From contig NW_001799333.1 in the NCBI RefSeq assembly GCF_000165425.1, forward strand, positions 1-64,000: 64,000 bases of DNA, in the 5' to 3' direction. The stretch comes from Paramecium tetraurelia. Lineage: Eukaryota; Ciliophora; Oligohymenophorea; Peniculida; Parameciidae. Both the position numbers and the translations under genes were made by a program. Under the pieces are notes generated by a model. The model was not told the DNA's origin. It did no database searches and saw only the letters and a program-made list of their open reading frames with translations. Position 1 is the stretch's first letter; each line of letters opens with the position of its first letter. Of the stretch, positions 22,930 through 64,000 are shown one piece after another.

Positions 22930-24755
22930 ATGTCTTAATAACCTTTAATTGAAATTCCAACGCTGACTTAAAATGATAACAACCAATAATAAGCGCAGAA
23001 AAATAAACCAAGCAAAGTTTCAAAATAATAGAGCTTAGATCATTTATCTGTTCATAGTTTTAAAAGTGGATTAACATATATAAGAGATTCTTGGAAGAGT
23101 GGAATGGCTTAAGCAATATTAAATATGCCATTTCATTTAACAATAGGAAGCAGTTCAGGTTGTAATGCTTCTGTTGGCATTACTACAGCATTCATAGCTG
23201 CATTCACAAATGGGTTTTTTAGTGGAAGTATATAATTAAGATTTATTAGGTAATCACTCTATCTATATGCCATCTTGGGTAGTTATTGGATTAAACTATT
23301 AATTAGTGAAGACTTATGGTGTTGAAGTTATGCCTTGGATCACAATAATAGTAGGAATCTAAATTTATATAGCAGGACTATTAAAGTGGCATCATTTATC
23401 AGATTTCATTCCAGTTTATGTTATTGAAGGATTTTTGCTGGGTATTGCAAGTTTATTTTTCTTTTCTTATAGTGATTACATGTTTGGATTAACTGATAAT
23501 CATTCTAATAGGGGAGTGGAACTTTATTCTTCTTACTATGACATGTTAAAGTCTTTTATAGAGAGAGGAGATATAAATTATTTGATTGGAGCATGGTGTG
23601 TTTTCCTCTTTTTGTAGATGGGTAGGATACTCTTTAGATAATTTCCATGGATATTTATAACAACTTTGACTGGATTAACCTTGGGAATAGTATATCCAAC
23701 TGAAAAATGTTTGAGATCTGCATATGGAGAAGTCACAATCTATTTTGATTTTATCGAATATGATGGCCCTAAATTTCATCCAGACTTTTAAGTGGTTAGT
23801 CATCTTATAACTGAAGCTATTCCAATTACACTTTTTATTTTGATATAAAATCAGTTCTGTGCAAGGGCAGGTTAATCTTTAAGTGGAGTTAAATGCGATT
23901 ATGATCAGGAAATCTAATGCGTTTCAACGGCAAATATTTTAAGTGGCATTTTTGGTGGATTACCTTGTTGTGCATCTTCAAGAATGTACATTCTGGATAT
24001 CAAATTACGTAAAACAAATCAATGGTCCTCCATTCTTAACGCCTTTTCAATACTTTTCTTCTATGGAGTTTTTAGTAAGGTTTTCATGGATATACCCTTC
24101 TACATTATAAGTGGTCAATTGTTGTACATGATTATCAATATACCACCATGGCATTATTATGTTAACTTATATAGAACCTAGAGAAAATTAATCTTATTCT
24201 ATATTTTTTGTATTGCTTGGTTATGCGTTAATTATGGAGCCATTTAAAGCACTCTAATTGGAAGCATGCATGCTCTTATCATATTTGCTCAAAAAATGAG
24301 CTTGCCTTCTGCAGAAGTAATGACCAATCAAAAGGATGGAGTTTATTAGATAAATTTAAGAGACACCAATCTTCACGAATTTGAGGAGGAATGCAATGAC
24401 ATACCTCCAAATATAGAAGGAACCTATACTGTCTATAGGTTTAACGGAGCCTTGAATTATATCAACATTAAAGGACATATTGATTAAATCAAAGAATTGG
24501 CAAAGACTGATATTTTCATTCTCAGTTTTAGATATGTTTGTGTAATCGATTTTTAAGCTGTTGATAGCTTGGCCATTATTATAGATAATATGAGAAGTAT
24601 TATATTGTTTAAAGATAGAAAATAGCACTTAAGTTTTTGTAACTGGATTGCATCCTGGAATGTTGGAATAATTGAGTGAGAATAGTATATTTAAAGAGTA
24701 TTTTATTAACGAAAACCACATGTTCCATCAAATAGATAAATTACCTCATTAGTGA
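22930..24755 (+). CDS. SulP/SLC26 anion transporter with STAS domain
   Basis: Membrane anion transporter or exchanger of the SLC26/SulP family. About 590 residues after removing introns 23228-23249 and 24597-24618 (22 nt each). Multiple hydrophobic segments run from residue ~75 onward (AQAILNMPFHLTIGSSSG, WVVIGLNYQL, YVIEGFLLGIASLFFF). The conserved CSTANILSGIFGGLPCC-type motif appears as STANILSGIFGGLPCCASS. The C-terminal STAS-like domain has FILSFRYVCVIDFQAVDSL and VFVTGLHPGMLEQL. Substrate cannot be told from sequence; sulfate, oxalate or bicarbonate are family options. The start ATG is the most upstream in the frame. Confidence 0.9.
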
Positions 24756-24898: not shown

Positions 24899-27800
24899 TA
24901 TTTCTTTGTCTTGTAGTTGATTTTCCTTCTTAATCTACTTGCTAAAGTATCATCCATTTTATCCTCGGTAATAATATCTTCTCTGAAAAGTTCAACCCTT
25001 TGACAGAAATTTTCAGGAATGACTAATTTGACAAGAGCCAAAAATATAATGCTACCTATTCCAAATCCGATGCAAAGTATATGTTGTTAAACAGTTAAAT
25101 GAGACACCTTAACAAATTTACCACCATATTAAATTAAGATGCATTAGATTATCAAAGTGAATGTCTAGACACCCCAAAATAGAGGATTGTTGCATGCATT
25201 AGTAAAAGGGTTGATAGTTTTGTAATCGAGTTATCTGCATGTAATTGAATTAAAAACTTGCATAACGACAAAAGTTTAGAAAAATATACTCATTTACACT
25301 ACATTCTTATGGAACTTAATTGATAACATTTATATATTACTTTTTATCCTTCTAACTCTTAAGGCATTGACAAATCCATATATTTTGGAAGAACAAACAA
25401 GATGCCACACAGAACAGCAATCTGATAGACAGATCCTCCTACGATGGTTCTATTCATGGTTGGAGATACAATTTTATCCTCTCTCTTGTATGGTTGTCTT
25501 TCAAGCACTGTGATATTGGGAGGTTCAGTTGCTAATGCTAAGGAAGCAAAGGTGTCCATAATAAGATTAACCCAGAGCATTTCAATAGTATTTAATGGAG
25601 ATTCTTTTAGAACAACAGCACCCAAAAAGGACATGAATAAAGCCACAAGGTTTACAGTTAATTGAAATTGGATAAATTTCCTAATACAGTCGTAAATATT
25701 TCTGCCCCATTTCATAGCTAAATTTACAAATAATAAATACCTGTGATTATGGAACTGAAATTATCATCTAATAAGATAATATCAGCAGCCATCCTTGGCA
25801 ACATCAGAACCAGTGATACCCATAGCAAATCCTACATCTGCTTTTTTTAAGGCTGGTGCATCATTAGTACCATCACCAGTGACTGCAATAACATTACCTT
25901 CAGCAATCAATCCAGTAACCAAAATGTATTTATCTTCAGGTGATGCTCTTGCCATAACCTTCATGTCTCTGGCAACCACTTTAAAATTTTCTTTATTTCC
26001 TACTTCTTTGATTTCATTTCCATCCTTGTCTTTACTTGTTTTGAGTCCTCCTACAAATTCTCTGAAAAACTTGCCCTCCATTACTTCATATTGTCCCGGT
26101 TGTTTGTTACTTTGAAGAATTCCGCATTCTTTAGCTATGGCTGTGGCAGTCAATATATTATCACCAGTAACCATTCTAACAGTAACTCCAGATGAATGAC
26201 ATTATTTGATTGAATTTGGTACATCTGGTCTTATTGGATCTTTGATTCCTGCAATTGCAACTAGTACTAAATCTTTATCTAAATCATCCTCTTAGATTGA
26301 TTAGGTGTATTTAGTAAGTTAAGGAATTTATCCTAATACACTTGAATTTTAAGAATGAGGATCGAGATCTCTATAAGCAATGGCTATTGTTCTTAAGGAT
26401 TCTGAGGCAAATTTTTAGATTACATCATTATAGATTTAATTTCTTGCATTCTAGTCTAATAATTATTCAACACCATTAGCTCCTACCATTTTGATGCATT
26501 GATTTAATACAATTTCAGAAGCACCCTTAGTATACACTCTAACAAATTGAGTTTTTGGATTATATACTGCAGTACTCATCTTCTTTCTCTTGCTATTGAA
26601 TGGGATTTATCTAAGGATTTTATCACTAGGTCTATATTATGAAAAGTTGTAGTTGAAATTATCGGCACACTCTAACAAAGCACATTCAGTCTTATTACCA
26701 ATTTAAATCCACTTATTTGTTACTTTATCCTTTTATGGGAATGCATTTGAATTGTAGCATATACTTTCACACATCAATTCAACGGTATTCTTATTCAGTT
26801 TAGATTTAATCGTATGGACATCATTCTATATAGTATTCCTTTCAACATACAAGGCAGTTACTTGCATGATATTTTGGGTTAATGTGCCGGTCTTATCACT
26901 ACATATGTTATTGGCTCCACCCATTATTTCACAAGATGATAGATTCTTAACCAAATTTTATTCATCTTTCATTTTTCCAACTGAATATGCCAATGCTATT
27001 GTAACAGCCAAGGGTAAACCTTCAGGTACAGCCACAACAATAATGGTTACAGAAATCATAAATGATTCCACTATCACTTATAAGGTCTTAAGACTTTTGA
27101 ATTGTATCTGACCTAAATAGATGTCATATCCAAGATGTCCCATTAAAGCAAAGAATGTAAAGATTGATACAATAACTCCCAATTTTCCTATATCTGAAGC
27201 CACTCCTTCTAATTTCTATTATAATGGAGTTGGTGGATTGTCTTGAATCAACAATTTTTTTAACTGTCCAGAGATTGTATTCTAACCAACAGCTAGAACT
27301 AGCATTTAGGCTGTTCCATCTAAGCATTTAGTTCCTGATATTAAAAATGGACTAGTGTGACCTCTGGCAGCATCTTGATTCAAATTATTATTGTTTTTAT
27401 TGTGCCATTTCTTGATATGGTAATTTTTTTATTTCATCACTTTCTCCAGTCATTGCTGACTCATCCATTTTAACTGCACTTCCTTATATCATCAAACCTA
27501 TTATAATAATACACTTATTCTGTTACCATCTACAACAAATAGATCCCCTAAATTAAATAATAGAATGTCTCCAACAACGAGATCTTTGGTTGCAATTTCA
27601 GTTACCTTATTTCCTCTTATTACTTGACATTTCCCATCATCCAATCTTCTTCTCAACTACCTGAATTGTTTTTCTTTCAAATAATTATTTCCTGCAGTGA
27701 TCGAAATGATCAAAAATATTGCAAAGAAAATAGTTGCTCTATTTTTATTAATAATTCACTTACCCTTCTGTCCAACCTGTTGCCAATCCTTCATTTATTA

Positions 27801-30951: not shown

Positions 30952-32110
30952 ATGGTTTTATAAAATAAATAATAGTAACATATCGTTTTTTTAATATTAA
31001 TGTTTATAATCGCAGGAATTTTATTTGTAAGTGTTTTTGGGCAGTTAGGCTATGATGGTTATACGGAATGGCAATCTGGGATTGACAGAACCATCAATAG
31101 ACAAAGTAAATTTGTTGAACCTGTTTATCCATTGCAGATGTTCACAAGAGTGCAATTTCCAAGATAATTCAGCAGGTTAGTATAATGGCTATTTGAATAG
31201 ACGGCCATAAGTTTTATTGATGCACGAAGAAATAGAGTGGAATAAAAATAGGAATATCAATTATTAAACTTTTGTTTCCGATGTGACTGTAAAAGGGTTC
31301 TATATCAACTATTTAATTAATGGCCCAGCAATTATTCCAGTGTTAAGAGTAAGATGGGTGGCTTTTGTAGATTCAGAAGCAGAAGTTCAATACGTTAATT
31401 ATCAATTTGAAGATTTGATTAGATTGAGACAAGGTTTTGGAACTAGATTCCAAGATTTCATGGTTCAATATTATTTGAAATATCCAACACCAAGAGTAGT
31501 AGCATTCATTGTAGGTGCAGAAATGGAAGTTTATGACTCATTAACAACAACTATATAAATTTAGTTGGGTAAACCAACAGGAAGTGCCACTCCTGTAAGA
31601 ATATTGACAAGAGATAGATGTCATATTAATACTCTTAGAATAGCATACTTTATTTCTTCAGATTATTCTACTATAATGGGAACTTTGGGTAGTTCAGACA
31701 ATTACTTTAATTAGTTTTTGGATAATGAAAATAGAATGAAATTAAGAGTACAAAGATTTGAGAGAGAAGTACCTTCTACTTTTATTTTCGAATCTCATTA
31801 GAATGTATTGGCCTAGGGAATCACAGGATTCGATGTGCATAGTAGAGCGGGTAATTTCTACGTTAAGGTTGGAGGTGAATATATTGATAAGAAATCATCT
31901 ACTTATCATTGTGCATATGGAACACGTAATCATTTTAATTCTATTTTAGGTGGTGACACTGTACTCTAATACATGGAAGTCAGTTATATTTTACATCCCC
32001 CAGCATTACCTCCATATCAAATGCTTGTTGAAGAGAGTGCTACAGACAAATAAGAGGAGGAGACTAAAACAGAAGAATAATAACTGCTAAATGAATCATT
32101 AATACCATGA
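30952..32110 (+). CDS. Membrane protein with H-type lectin domain
   Basis: About 375 residues over one 25-nt intron (31176-31200). The N-terminus is a single membrane segment (HIVFLILMFIIAGILFVSVF), so type II or a signal anchor. Residues around 80-140 match the H-type lectin fold: RPQVLLMHEEIEWNKNRNIN, then VTVKGFYINYLING and VLRVRWVAF, compare the family's PxVxxGLxxLD...VTxxGFxL...W. A second similar block may follow (VLAQGITGFDVHSRAGNFYV, then YMEVSYILHPP). The C-terminus is acidic (TDKQEEETKTEEQQ). H-type lectins bind GalNAc-type sugars; that specificity is inferred. The gene ends 27 bp before the next start. Confidence 0.6.
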
Positions 32111-38704: not shown

Positions 38705-40132
38705 TCACTTGATTATTTCGAAAATGTTCTCGCATAAATTATATATCTCTTCATCTTCATGTTAGGATAATTCAGCTAAGAATTGTTCTCCATTTTATTA
38801 TATGAATATAGGGATAGCTTCAATGTTCTTTTGTAAGATCCCTTCTACTATTCTTAAGATATCAACGATAATATCTGTATTATCCATATTTTTGTCCAAT
38901 AAATTAATCAATTGTTATATCGGTTAGAATAATTATATCAATTGTTTTAATTCGCTTTAATTTAAACCACTAATGATCTAATAATAAAAGGAATAATAAT
39001 AAATGCTACCATAAATCTCCTTATTAGCTTCTTATAATTGGTCATTAAATTAAAATAACTACACGATATTAGTCTTAAGAATACTATAAATTATTTTTGG
39101 GTTTTCAACGATCATATTTGTAAAAATACTCAACACTTTGTTAATTGGCTTATACTAATATTTCTCTTATTTTCCAGTAATCAAAGTCTAATTAACTTTA
39201 AGAATTAGGAAATTTAAGACATTGTTTTCTATTGGTTCATATCGATTTCTGTCAAAATATGACATTATCTTTATTAATGATAATATTTCATTTAAGTAAA
39301 GATCTGAATATGTTTTATTCTAACAGAGATTATTTATGAAATTCAGATCTAATAAGTTTTTATCTTTCAAACATATTTTATATATTAGTTACAAGATTCC
39401 TACTATTGATTCATTGCTTAATAAATGAGGAAATAATTCCCAACATAATTTAATCATCTAAATTTAGTTAAAATTTGACATTAGGGGCTGAGTTCTTGAG
39501 ATATTGATAATAATTTAAGCTAGATCTTCCATTAATTCATTTTTGGTTTAATAGATTGCTTTGAATATTGCTTAAGGTATTTCATAAATTAAAATGGCAT
39601 CCCTGCATTAATAACAGTCTGCTGCTAAGTTTGAAAATATAAACAGAACAGTTTATTTAAGCTCTTCATATTATGTATCATGGAAAAGCTTCAACAAATC
39701 AGGTATATATTTTAATATAGGTTTGCACGTTGAATGATTTGGCAATGTAAACGCTAATAATATTTGTAAACAAGCTCTCTTATATAAAAATATTTTATAT
39801 ACATCTAATACTGGATATCCTTAGTTGATAATGTCAAATATCATTTCAACATCAGAAGATGTCTGATAATTCTTATCACAATCGCTTTCATTAAAAGTAT
39901 CCGCTAATTCTGATATTTTCTAAATCTTTTATATAGTTTCATTAAGTTAAACATCATTTGGACATTATTTTTAGTGATATGCAATATAATATATTTCTGA
40001 TAAGTTAGTTGTAGTATTAGAAAATGGCAAGTATTGTGTTTTTGAGATTCTCTTACATTTGAAAACTTCTTCTCGTTTTTGTTTTCTTATATTGATGGAA
40101 AATTCTTCCCTCTTTTTCTATATAATATTCAT
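38705..40132 (-). CDS. Divergent importin alpha (ARM repeats)
   Basis: 475 residues, no introns. The N-terminus is an importin-beta-binding-like basic helix (KKREEFSINIRKQKREEVFK). Armadillo-type repeats follow: IPDLLKLFHDTQYEELKQTV, then FIFSNLAADCYQCRDAI, GILQLIYKICLKDKNLLD, and more weakly to the end (IDIIVDILRIVEG-like). Importin alpha carries classical nuclear-localisation cargo. The conserved Trp/Asn ladder (W-x-x-x-N) of cargo-binding grooves is poorly kept: several repeats lack the Trp. A specialised nuclear adaptor, perhaps for one of the two ciliate nuclei, is a speculation. Confidence 0.7.
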
Positions 40133-40216
40133 TATTAAGTTTTATGAAAAAGAATAAATTATACCCTTTAATAATAGGTCTGAAAACACTAAATTAAACA
40201 TATAATTAGATTAAAA

Positions 40217-51569: not shown

Positions 51570-52808
51570 ATGAGGCAATCTGTGAGTTTTTAAGATATAA
51601 CTACTTTATAACTCAAAATAAGTACGCTATAATAGCAAGTCAATTAATTGACAATAGAAAACAGCTCCTTGCAATAGCAATTGACATTTTTATAAAAGCA
51701 ACTCTCCCTATCTAAATAGTCAGAAGAAGCATCGTAATAAAAGATAAAATAATATGAGCAGCTATTATAAGAGTAGAATCTGTAATTTTAAGAAGCTCTA
51801 GCTAAGTCCTCCGAAATTCCAAAGCAATTACAGGAATAGCTGAAAGTGGTTTTGGATGAGAAAGATAGCCTATTGAATGATTTCAAGGAATAAACATGGA
51901 TTTACAAAAAAACCATAAACAACTATGAATCTCTAACTGCTTAGGTGCAAACTGTGTTTTCAGACAAACAATAAAGAAAACTCAAAGTTACAGGGCTTAT
52001 GGAGCAATTATTATCGCAATAATATAAAATCACAAATTGGAAATTGAATCCATAAATTTAATATGAGAAGCAAGAGTTTGAAGTATTCGAGATTAAAATT
52101 GGAAAACACATGAATAAGATTCTGGATAAAAAATTGTTCTTTTTAGCAAATGAGGGATTGCAGATTGATAGCCTTGGGAAAATGCAAGCATTGGTCTCAC
52201 TTAAACCTAATGTAGTAGCAGATCTTCAAGTGGGGTACATTATTGAAGTATAGACTACCGATGATCAATCCTTAAAATCCAAATATTTGCTAAGGAGAGA
52301 ACCAAAACAAGAAACCTTATCATAAGGATACCAGAAGAAGTAAGAGGCAATACAATAATCTATGAATAATATGTTGTGTTCAGCTTTATTAGAAAGATTA
52401 AGAAAAAGATAACCAATTTATGATGAATTTAAAGATTATGGAATCTAAAGATAATTTATGTTGAAGGCTACAAGTAATATTGATTGTATATTAGATTTAA
52501 AACTGTATTATTATTGTGAAATGATAGAGGAAGGAGAATTCTAGAAGTTCAATGGGGGAAATATTGAGCCTGTGATTAATTCTGAATTAGAGGACTTTAT
52601 TAATTTTTTCACTTTTGATTCCTTTTAGGATATAGATGAAAAATTAGTAGTTAGTCATATGCAAAGATTTGGATGTTATTTCCATGATATGATAGTATCC
52701 ACCTTTATAGGAGTGTTCTCTCAGTATGATTAAGGAAAACAGGAGGTGGTGTACACAATCAAGAATTTAGAAAAGGCTCTTGGATTTTCATCATAAACCA
52801 TAAAATGA
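51570..52808 (+). CDS. Coiled-coil protein with conserved C-terminal half
   Basis: 412 residues in one long exon. Residues 1-~180 are coiled coil (LKISTLQQQVNQLTIENSSL, LLNDFKEQTWIYKKTINNYE). Residues ~200-412 look globular, with moderate complexity (KKLFFLANEGLQIDSLGKMQ, LKPNVVADLQVGYIIEVQ, MQRFGCYFHDMIVSTFIGVF). I do not recognise the globular part. Its stop lies 26 bp from the stop of the converging stomatin-like gene. Confidence 0.65.
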
Positions 52809-59016: not shown

Positions 59017-59093
59017 TTTAAGAATAATGTGAATGTGAATATGAATATGAATATTAATTAATATATATATTATTAATAATAAATCAAAATGAT

Positions 59094-59975
59094 CTAAAAT
59101 TTTTATCTATCTTAATGCATGCATCTTCCAATAATTTTAACAAGGCTTCAGTTGTAGCTTCTCTCTCCCTTCTTTCAAAATTGATATCTTGTTGCAATTT
59201 GCCATGAACATCCTCAATCATTCTAAATATCTTTCCTTAAGTTTCTTCTCTAACCTTCTTTTCAATTAATAATTAATCTGAAAACTTATTAATTTCTGAG
59301 TCGATCTATTCAGACAAGGATTCTGCTGATTCTTCTCTAATTTATAGATATACAAATAACATACCTTGATTGTCTCTCTTGGTCTAATTGATTTTTTACA
59401 ACTTAAATTTATTACAAGACCTCTGCTATTTTTGCTTGACTTCTATCTTCATATTGATGAGTGTTTCTGGTGATTGTTAAGGTGATTTGTGCAAATCGTT
59501 CATCAATTTGCTTTTACAACTTGGTTTCTGCTTATCCTCTAGCATTTTTTTCTTACTCAAAAGAAAGAGCAACATTGTCAGATAAAATTCTAAAATCTTT
59601 CTCCTTCTTATCATCAAATGCCTATAGATACTTAGATATTTATACCTCTCTTTCAGATTTTTAATTATGTGCATGATCTTACAATTTTAGCACTTAATCT
59701 TTAAGTACCTTAAATTTCTACTCGTCCTTTGGTTTTTCCTATGATAAGACATCCTCGATTATTTTAATTCTCTCTTCTAATACTTCTCTCTTTTCCAATT
59801 TATCTTTATCAATTCCATTCTGAATGTGATTCCACTTATCAGATAATAACTTGATTCTTTGTCTTGATGGTGAATCCAAGTCTTAGCTGAGATAATTGAC
59901 CGTTGATCTTTGGGGACTTGATATTTATGATCTGGATAATTTTGATGTTGTAAGTTTTGATGTCGAAAGGAGCAT
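59094..59975 (-). CDS. SF-assemblin / beta-giardin family protein
   Basis: Filament protein of basal-body rootlets (striated fibres). About 275 residues after introns 59622-59645 (24 nt) and 59337-59364 (28 nt). A Ser/Thr/Pro-rich head (SSPQRSTVNYLSQDLDSPSR) is followed by RIKLLSDKWNHIQNGIDKDK and a long segmented coiled coil with the family's 29-residue periodicity (QAETKLQKQIDERFAQITLT, EESAESLSEQIDSEINKFSD, MIEDVHGKLQQDINFERRER). The end is KLLEDACIKIDKNF. Head phosphorylation by SP/TP kinases regulates assembly in relatives. Confidence 0.9.
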
Positions 59976-60563
59976 ATTAAAATGATATTTTCTAAAATAA
60001 ATTTATTTACGATTTATTTCATTACACTACATATAAATTGCTAAATTCAATTAATTTAACAAATCCAACTTCATCCCTCAGTCCTAGCTATTTGAGACCG
60101 AATTATACATGTAGCAACCTTATTAAATCAATTTAAGAACCTACTTTGATTTTGGAAATCTTTATTTAGGGAGTTCATCCAAATTCTACGAGAAATCGCA
60201 ACATCCACATTAAACTAAGTTATGATTTGGTTTTCAGATTAGTTTTCCAATAAGCATAGAACAAATAAAGATTTAACGTTATTTTTTGGAGTTATTGTTA
60301 AAATTGTTCTCCTTCAATTAATCACAAATAGGAAATTAAATTGGCCTTAATACTTTGATTATAATCAGAAATTGATTAAATGATATGTTTCAATAAAAGA
60401 TCTTTTCCTTCCCAATTTGATTACAAAAATATGAAATTTCATTATTGATCAACTTTATTATTTTTGGACAGATCTTAAATGAAGTATTAATTAATGAGGA
60501 TTCAATATGTCGAATTGCAATTTGTTTGCAGTGAAATAATAATAAATTTATTTAACAAAAAAA
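59976..60563. other. Region with ambiguous open frames
   Basis: Two plus-strand frames are open for about 125 and 78 codons (one contains DQFSNKHRTNKDLTLFFG), but both lack a start and end without joining. I cannot support a gene. The promoters of the flanking divergent genes should lie here. Confidence 0.4.
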
Positions 60564-62540
60564 ATGCTGTAATTCAAGAGTTTAGAAGAACAAATTCAAT
60601 ACCAAGAAAAGAATATTGAGTACTTGTAACAACAAAACTTTGATTTGCAAAACCATATCTCCTAATTCTCTCAATTTTAATAGTTAGGAATTACCATTGA
60701 GGCATTTCAATCTTTGTAGAATAATAGCAAAGAGCAATCACAACAAATTAAACAATTGCAAAAAGAGAATGGCAATCTACTTAAATAGATTCAAAACAAT
60801 CAAGTGAAATATTATGATAAAACATTATCAAAACTGTAATAAGAAAATGTGAAATTGAAGAATGAGATCAGATAATTACGTCAAAGGATTTCATCGCCAT
60901 CCAAACTTGATAAGTCAATTGTTTAGTACAGCACACCTTAAAAGTTACTTAATCCTAGTGCTATACTCAAATCCACAAAAGATCATCCAAAAGATGTGTC
61001 AAGTTTGCTATTTATTAAGGGGTCTCAAAACTTTAAGTCTCCTTATGTCGATATCATTAAAGGAAAATACGAAAACATCAAAGTAATCAAATAGCTGAAA
61101 TCAGGATTAGAGCAATCTTATTTCGACACATATCACTTTGACGTTGTAAGTCAAGATCTCTAATACTCACTCCAATAATTGGATAGATAGCACAGTATCC
61201 ATTAGGGCAAAGGGCTTCTGCTATCCAATTAATTATGTTTGATCTTTGGGGCTTCGAGAACAAATAAAAAGCATTTCCTCATCTAATACCTAGATACTTT
61301 ACTAGGTTAAGTAAAGCAACAGTTCGAAATCTTTTAACAGAATGAGGATTATTAATAATTGATTGTGAAGATTGTATATGAAGAATTATTTAATGGTTCA
61401 GCCAAGCATCCAAGTGAAAGTGAAATACTATTCAATAAAGAGTAAAATAAGAGAGATAATGAAAACAAATTCAGAGAGATTGAATTGTCGATCTCAAAAT
61501 TGAGATTAATCATTCTCAACAAACTCAAAATGACGATAAAGGATAATAGTAAGAAGTATGTGAAAATAAGAAAACTGTATATAGAAACGGAGTTGTAATT
61601 CAATAAGGAAACTCAATTAAATAAGTTTATAGTTTTTACATCCAATTAAAATTTGAATCAAAAATAGTTTTAAAATGCAGAGGAAGGCTTAAATGAAACT
61701 CTGGCCATGAAGGACAAAGGAAGGGAATTGACATAGATTCTAAGATGGCCATAATTACAAATTTCTTTAGTGTTATGTGTTCATCCCACAATTCCAGACT
61801 ATTCTTTTACTATAAATACATTTTAGCTATGCAAATTTATTAGGAATTTAAAACTAGTATCTGATTCTCCTTAAGGTTCTGATAAATTTTAATAAATTTT
61901 GGAGAATAACAATGTAAAATAATTAAATATCGATAGAAATCTCTTGAATAAAAGATAAAAAAATTGAGAGATAAAATCAAGAACTTGGAATCTGAAAATT
62001 ACAGAGTTAAAAAGTAAAGTGTAATCTTAGAAGCAGAGAATGAGGAGGCAGTTGATAAGAATAGAAAATTGAAATAGCAGTTGATAAATTTAACAGGTTC
62101 TCTGTAGCAACTGCAAATGAATTTTTAACAGTAGATTTCTGCAAAGAAATCCTTATCTTTATCTAAAACCAAAAGTGCCATTGTAGCTGATAGTAAAACA
62201 ATACAAACTCTTGAGAAGGCTTCAAAAAGCATATCGGTTTTATTGTCTTAGGGCAGCAAGAGTGATTTGAGTGTGAGTCCTTCCAAAGTTCATAAGACTG
62301 TACCTTCAGATTTACTAATTGTATCATTATGAGAGTTATAAAATATAGCCGAATTTCTAGGAGGATCCTGATGACGAAGAAGAATACTAGGAGGAAGGAG
62401 AGGATGGTTAGGAGGACGAAGACTAGGTGGATGATGAGGATGATTAGAATGCAGATTCATAGTAGCCATCTGAAGTGGATGAATCAGAAGGGTAAGATAT
62501 ACAATAGCCTAGGAAAGAGTCGTCGATATCTATGATATGA
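60564..62540 (+). CDS. Degenerate kinesin-like protein without P-loop
   Basis: About 640 residues. The N-terminal ~140 residues are coiled coil (EEQIQYQEKNIEYLQQQNFD, KLKNEIRQLRQRI). A kinesin-motor-like domain follows in the order expected: YFDTYHFDVVSQDLQYSLQQ (like Y-x-F-D-x-V), then CLIFGASRTNKKHFLIQYL where kinesins have YGxTGSGKT, then LNKFIVFTSNQN, and ISLVLCVHPTIPDYSFTINT, QLCKFIRNLK like the motor's last strand and helix. The P-loop Lys/Thr and the DLAGSE switch II are missing, so ATP hydrolysis is unlikely. A 23-nt intron near 61913-61935 leads into a second coiled coil (KIKKLRDKIKNLESENYRVK). A 28-nt intron near 62320-62347 leads to a very acidic tail (EDPDDEEEYQEEGEDG). Comparable to non-motor kinesins. 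Confidence 0.65.
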
Positions 62541-62575: not shown

Positions 62576-63719
62576 ATGAAGATCATTTTGTTGGTTTTCT
62601 TGATTGGGGCTACATTTGCTAGAGACGAAGGCTTTTTTGCTTAATTAAGGAATAGTGATTTTGGAAAGACCATCATCTAAACACTTTAAGTTTAATTGTC
62701 TCAAGATCATCCAGCAGACGCAGTTGTTCATCTCTTGAAATAGATGAAAGATGATCTAAACAATGAATAAAGAGTTGAGGATGAAGGGATAACTGGACAA
62801 TTGAAAACATGTTAAGATGCTTCAAGTGCTGCAGCTGCTGTATTAACTATTGCCAAGGAACGTAAAGCTACATCAGAGGAAAGACTACCCTTACTCTAAT
62901 AAGAATAAAATGATAAGAAACAATAATTGTTTGATAAGTAAGGAGAGGAATAGAGAAACTTGGATAGAATATCAGTATTATAAGAAGCTAGAAATGTTTA
63001 AAGAGTAATTAATTATAAAATAACATTAGCAAGAATTTGAGTAAAGAAGAGATGAGTTGGTGGGTTTAGTTTCTGCACTTCAAGAAGCAAAGAAAATCTT
63101 GTCTTAAGGAATCGGAGCTTTGAAAAAGAATAGTTTTGCTGAACTTAAGAATCATCATCAAAACTTTTTAAAATATTTCCCAAATAAGAAAGGTTTCCAT
63201 AGTATGGTTAATGTGCTATTGACTGTTTTATAAGAAGAAGGTACACAAGAGAATGCTGCTTAGAAGGTTGTGAAAATCATTGATACTCTTGTTGACAGCA
63301 TCTTTTAGGTTCAAAAAGAGGAAATGAGAGCAGATGATGCTAGAGAATTAGACTTCTTAACATAAAAAGAGAGATTGCTTTTGGCTAATAGGAGGTTGTC
63401 TGGCAGTGTGGCTGATTTGAATGCAGCTAATGAGAGAATTGGATAAAAAATATTAGAAATCAAGAATGACATCTCAATTCAAGATTCTGTATTTATTATT
63501 TACGATTTAAGATTATTTTCAATAAGTCTACTGAATAGGCCGATTGGGATTAGACTTGCAGTGATACTGATAAGGCACACAGATAACAAACTGAATAAAG
63601 GTAATTTAATTAAATATAAAAGAAATGCTTAATTAGAAATAATTGTAGAATGCATTGATATCTTTGAGACCAGATTCGATATGGAAACAAAAAGCTACAT
63701 ATAACGCCTTAGATTCTGA
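62576..63719 (+). CDS. Trichocyst matrix protein
   Basis: About 355 residues over introns 63005-63029 (25 nt) plus a 23-nt one near 63491 and a 22-nt one near 63602. Signal peptide MKIILLVFLIGATFAR, then the family opening SDFGKTIIQTLQVQLS and HLLKQMKDDLNNEQ. Rod-like helices follow, with TCQDASSAAAAVLTIAKERK, RNLDRISVLQEARNV, KNSFAELKNHHQNFLKYF and LTQKERLLLANRRLSGSVAD. Cysteines are few (DWDQTCSDTDKAH). Proproteins of this family are cleaved and pack into the trichocyst crystal. Lies 35 bp after the kinesin-like gene and 66 bp before another member. Confidence 0.88.
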
Positions 63720-63785: not shown

Positions 63786-64000
63786 ATGAAGTTTTCTATT
63801 GTAATACTAATGCTTCTAGTCGTGGGGAATATGGCTTCCGATTTTGATCAGTAGGTTGAAGAATTGTAGAACTCCAACTTTGGTTAGACAATATTACAAA
63901 CAATTTTGATGGAATTGTAAACAGGTGACCCAGTGATTTCAAACCTAATTAATATGATCTAGGGTCTGGAAACAACCTTAGAGAATGAATAAGAAAGAGA
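63786..64000 (+). CDS. Trichocyst matrix protein, 5' part
   Basis: Starts with a signal peptide (MKFSIVILMLLVVGNMA) and the family opening NSNFGQTILQTILMELQTG, closely like the preceding gene, then NLINMIQGLETTLENEQER. The gene runs off the right edge. It forms a tandem pair with the upstream member. Confidence 0.85.

Follow-up and report, generated by a model that had tools for sequence, protein, structure and literature searches.

Under the ciliate code, in which TAA and TAG are read as glutamine and TGA is the stop, a three-exon gene encoding 660 amino acids is located at 60507–62540 on the plus strand of the window, i.e., the whole 64,000-nucleotide stretch of DNA that was analyzed. The window is AT-rich (GC 0.22–0.33), and TAA and TAG occur as sense codons in its genes; in combination with introns as short as 23–28 nt, these features point to Paramecium. 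The coding region is interrupted by two introns of the form GTA...TAG, one of 23 nt (61914–61936) and one of 28 nt (62321–62348), both on the plus strand, and splicing them out restores the frame exactly, leaving a single frame to the stop at 62540. In the first-pass annotation, the gene had been given as one span from 60564 to 62540. The frame has its first ATG at 60507, downstream of an in-frame TGA at 60495–60497, and both introns need to be removed, such that neither that start nor that unspliced span is retained here. No in-frame TGA is found among the 660 codons, where about 13 would be expected from the base composition, and the two other forward frames contain 21 and 30. Because of this deficit, 60507–62540 is a gene rather than a chance open frame, and the gene is real and intact. 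If its product is related to kinesins, one could imagine that a kinesin gene died recently or that this copy is mis-assembled, which would account for the absence of catalytic motifs described below. The stop-free frame and the exact restoration of frame by two short introns are hard to reconcile with this explanation, which we consider very improbable.

The neighbor upstream is a divergently transcribed gene on the minus strand (59084–60074; 28-nt intron at 59337–59364; 320 amino acids when spliced), which matches SF-assemblin at 22.3 bits (E = 9.7e-05), below the Pfam cut-off of 30.6. It had been suggested from the sequence that the candidate might serve as a basal-body scaffold; nothing in the candidate supports this idea, and only this neighbor resembles SF-assemblin, at that sub-threshold score. 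Downstream on the plus strand are two tandem genes with signal-peptide-like starts (62576–63719 and 63786–64000), which we take to be trichocyst matrix protein-like; the only piece of them that was scanned, 62817–63719, has no Pfam match at E 0.01. Elsewhere in the window, Pfam matches above cut-off were obtained for a sulfate permease (22973–24679), a P-type cation ATPase (25782–27440), an H-type lectin (31025–32110), an importin-beta-binding domain (38705–40201) and an alpha-kinase (51570–52808).

The 660-residue protein has a layered organization, with all features encoded on the plus strand. A heptad-patterned stretch occupies residues 1–135 (60507–60911), with its best windows at residues 15–56 and 99–126. 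It is followed by a kinesin-like head at residues 163–447 (60993–61847), with approximate limits taken from the profile alignments and block tests, and by a second heptad-patterned stretch at residues ~463–546 (61893–62167), the DNA of which is interrupted by intron 1. The coiled coils proposed earlier on both sides of the head are thus represented by heptad patterning on both sides, as obtained by our own simple count rather than by a coiled-coil program. About 210 residues lie downstream of the head, including the second heptad stretch, a basic and serine-rich region (residues 536–600, net charge +6) and, next to it, an acidic tail. The long acidic tail was correctly recognized from the outset: the last 60 residues (601–660; 62358–62537) contain 27 D/E and 2 K/R, a net charge of −25. 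The head of ~285 residues has a net charge of +8, residues 327–376 alone account for +8, and the region from alpha4 to alpha5 has a net charge of 0.

The stretches on which a kinesin-like reading was originally based can all be read in a single frame under the ciliate code, i.e., YHFDVV at 61131–61148, FGASRTNKKHFL at 61245–61280 and VHPTIPDYSFTINTFQLCKFI at 61779–61841. The motifs of a working motor are missing, as had been noticed for the P-loop and DLAGSE. Kinesins carry a P-loop of the form GQTxxGK[ST] and a switch II of the form DxxGxE (PMC5076506). A pattern scan of the 660-residue protein returned no match to GxxxxGK[ST], GQTxxGK[ST] or DxxGxE, nor to Nxx[ST][ST]R[SA]H, SxRxH or RxRP. 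When the candidate was aligned with eight kinesins by MAFFT, to which its identity is 10–17%, FGASRTNKKH was placed unaided on YGQTxxGKTH and LIVKIVYEELFN on the EIYN motif of beta4, while the candidate has gaps in ~36 alignment columns past beta4, in the beta5/L8 region. GASRTNKK therefore stands at the place of the P-loop in this alignment, where the second glycine is replaced by N and the serine/threonine by K. The P-loop position corresponds to FGASRTNKKHFL (residues 247–258), where kinesins have YGQTxxGKTxxM. Switch I would fall on LSISK (residues 327–331; 61485–61499) and switch II on YIETEL (residues 358–363; 61578–61595), both in an uncertain register within an alignment block that is not significant. 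If the head is derived from a kinesin, kinesin-style ATP use would hardly be possible, since the P-loop residues are replaced and the two switches are unrecognizable.

The head is not recognized by the libraries that were searched. With the 486-amino-acid open frame at 60507–61967, which runs into intron 1, as the query in place of the spliced protein, no match to PF00225 (the kinesin superfamily) was found in Pfam at an E limit of 10, where the HMMER filters drop most matches above ~0.1, and no kinesin match was found among PDB sequences or in NCBIfam. Our own HMM of 16 kinesins gave 0.0 bits, with its sole domain placed in the N-terminal coil. No homologue of the candidate was found in viral contigs, in genome contigs or in 7 genomes with kinesin loci. 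A further search covered 343 genomes from the same order as G001, chosen because endosymbiont assemblies may contain ciliate host DNA; it returned no homologue, and an empty answer there shows nothing. The single weak match in the 7 genomes with kinesin loci, in L016 (E 0.02), is adaptin-like by eye and was discarded as chance. Since no relative was found, the absence of the motor motifs can be called neither a loss nor a conserved feature.

The scans also brought up kinesins in unexpected assemblies. Contigs with kinesin genes are present in L001, L004, L005 and L009 (MAGs labelled Rickettsiales and Desulfosporosinus), and the in-frame TAA/TAG codons of these kinesins are often at glutamate positions, as in the peritrich code; these contigs are eukaryote contamination. 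The genome of L007 (G006, labelled Verrucomicrobiaceae H1_MAG_00039) has 41 kinesin-family matches at E <=0.1, and such a number in one "bacterial" MAG indicates that this genome is partly eukaryotic. No kinesins were found in the scans of viral contigs.

We then have to weigh whether the candidate is a kinesin at all. It could be a ciliate protein with coiled coils and a domain unrelated to kinesins, the likeness being due to chance and to an eye for patterns, and the silence of the libraries and of our own HMM is what one would expect in that case. So is the local alignment to a kinesin profile, which does not stand out from chance, as 39 of 200 shuffles score equally well. The end-to-end comparison points the other way. 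Two profiles were used, one of 16 kinesins with all ciliate TAA/TAG read as Q (for the local test, the end-to-end test with 4000 shuffles and the comparison of 44 segments) and a second one of 15 kinesins with five rows translated by table 30 (TAA/TAG = E; for the comparison of 170 segments, the hhalign comparison of 470 entries, and the block and ORF tests). With residues 151–480 forced end to end on the 16-kinesin profile by our own dynamic-programming script, the score of the candidate was reached by 9 of 4000 shuffles at gap costs of 8/0.7, by 1 of 4000 at 6/0.5 and by 21 of 4000 at 11/1. The register depends on gap cost: of the three printed alignments, the one at 6/0.5 alone places FGASRTNKKHFL on the P-loop, and in those at 8/0.7 and 11/1 nothing is matched to the P-loop and the N-terminal half slips.

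The candidate was also compared with other segments. With the 16-kinesin profile, it has the highest Z of 44 segments, 41 of which are controls. Among 170 segments with the 15-kinesin profile, its rank by Z is 7th at two of the three gap settings, the six above it all being kinesin-bearing; at the strict one it drops to 12th. In both comparisons, the reversed candidate scored below its own shuffles. Ten stretches supplied the control ORFs from G004; ciliate genes are present in some of these stretches, and others are probably bacterial. In a profile–profile comparison, one of the checks proposed at the outset, the best match by hhalign against 7 kinesins is at the expected place with alpha5-beta8-alpha6 in register, but P is only 0.099. 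With the larger profile, the local mode gave this match again with P = 0.049 (4 of 300 shuffles as good; 18th of 470 entries), and the global mode placed the candidate 48th of 470 (19 of 300 shuffles as good).

The signal is concentrated in two blocks. At gap costs of 6/0.5, and with block limits that were picked after viewing the alignment, none of 2000 shuffles attains the score of the alpha5-beta8-alpha6 block (residues 406–449; 61722–61853), the best kinesin match in the protein, and 5 of 2000 attain that of the block from beta3 through the P-loop and alpha2 to beta4. For the larger stretch from beta1 to beta4, 17 of 2000 shuffles do as well, compared with 179 of 2000 for everything from the N-terminus to alpha4; from switch I to alpha4 there is no signal (532 of 2000). 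When the profile itself was rearranged as a control, an equally high score was obtained with 8 of 103 circularly shifted versions and with 8 of 300 versions in which its 8 blocks were permuted. As a check on the post hoc limits, the two blocks were searched for in 2564 ORFs, with the candidate included. Taken singly, the blocks place it 7th and 18th, with four kinesin ORFs and two others above it in the former case. For both blocks in the right order, it ranks 5th with a score of 23.7; above it are three kinesin ORFs and an ORF that was judged by eye to be UvrB-like, and two ORFs with no known kinesin come close at 22.7, one of them inside the window.

These results cut both ways. Other ORFs that equal the candidate on single blocks, the two that nearly equal it on both blocks in order, and the middle of the head without signal are all compatible with a fortuitous likeness. 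Against this stand the correct order of two blocks within one open frame, ranked 5th of 2564 ORFs, and an end-to-end score above nearly all shuffles of a protein whose reversal falls below its own. With other ORFs as the yardstick, the support for a kinesin-like order is moderate: the claimed succession of strands and helices is borne out within the two blocks and not between them. We regard an unrelated domain as a serious possibility, at somewhat less than an even chance. Judged from sequence comparison, the head is probably kinesin-derived, which is short of proof.

Structure prediction, another of the checks proposed at the outset, gave two models that are too poor for a decision on the fold (pLDDT 34.7 and 37.6). 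A single-sequence AlphaFold model has a mean pLDDT of 34.7, i.e., very low confidence; it runs through helix, strands, the P-loop position, helix, strand, several strands and helices, an order that is kinesin-like around the P-loop position and in the C-terminal helices, with beta8 missing. No kinesin was among the matches listed by Foldseek for this model (best 50). A second model, fed with eight kinesin rows, reached a pLDDT of 37.6, and its best 50 Foldseek matches are kinesin-family at TM <=0.37; this outcome is circular, as a kinesin alignment was the input, and it is given no weight.

A degenerate kinesin head, as first suggested, is the best explanation found, at a moderate level of support and with no library recognizing the head, and descent from a kinesin motor is inferred as part of that explanation. 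The head would be what remains of a kinesin motor after decay of its nucleotide pocket, with the P-loop, switch I and switch II unrecognizable and the two blocks described above still readable. By eye, RNLKLVSDSPQGSDKFQQIL after alpha6, followed by a coil, resembles the neck linker and neck coil of N-terminal kinesins, and not the end of a kinesin-14. The coils might dimerize the protein with itself or with a working kinesin. The head might hold on to microtubules in an ATP-independent manner and act passively, as a foothold or a brake; the contact may be made by the basic residues 327–376, and the acidic tail could fold onto the head or onto a partner and so keep the protein off the lattice.

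Alternatively, a kinesin-derived head may have left microtubules altogether and act purely as a structural or cargo scaffold. The neutral alpha4-alpha5 region, which disfavors microtubule binding there, and the gapped columns after beta4 would suit a scaffold, but the basic stretch with its predicted charge would be unexpected in one; we hold this possibility to be quite unlikely. Taken together, our preferred reading is that the gene encodes a non-catalytic kinesin relative, a coiled-coil dimer that serves as a passive microtubule foothold or as the partner of an active kinesin, with a probability of roughly 0.46, just short of even. A bolder version would see in it a ciliate pseudo-kinesin lineage, in which a head with no nucleotide pocket between two coils is a permanent, ATP-independent microtubule tether, and an acidic tail imitating the acidic C-terminus of tubulin is its switch. 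This version is improbable.

Dead kinesin heads reveal which parts of the motor are needed for holding on to microtubules once the use of fuel has been abandoned. If the preferred reading is true, the candidate would add one more independent loss, at a great distance from yeast and animals and in cells whose microtubule arrays are very elaborate, and it would be a warning that family searches may overlook such proteins. What would be new is a dead kinesin in a ciliate that is decayed beyond the family models, whose head is central and whose tail is acidic. No ciliate pseudo-kinesin was found among titles and the beginnings of abstracts, a search with most subscription journals outside its scope and hence no proof of absence.

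In Vik1 and Cik1, the head is C-terminal and a coiled coil lies ahead of it. The motor domains of VAB-8 and the KIF26 proteins are still recognizable as kinesins. Vik1 and Cik1 are partners of the kinesin-14 Kar3 and have a motor homology domain without the elements needed for ATP binding and hydrolysis, and the Cik1 head acts as a foothold that prevents Kar3 from diffusing away (PMC4338441). The candidate resembles them in a head with no ATP-binding motifs and in a coil before the head. It differs in that its head is central, with another coil and then the acidic tail behind it. The yeast proteins had been named as the precedent, which is sound in that such proteins are known, but too narrow: in animals, VAB-8, KIF26A and KIF26B are described as having a kinesin motor domain with no functional P-loop and no motility in vitro, with a pausing role for VAB-8 (PMC12646758). 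Because non-catalytic kinesins are thus known outside yeast, a "pseudo-motor" alone would not be new. The candidate shares with these animal proteins the lack of a functional P-loop, and unlike them it is not recognized by Pfam. An orphan group in the kinesin tree, pseudoKinesin-21, is described as currently unique to fungal taxa (PMC5076506); it is set beside the candidate for its orphan placement, by that description and not by sequence. If the candidate is kinesin-derived, the foothold of Cik1 and the pausing of VAB-8 would by analogy be the closest functional models for it.
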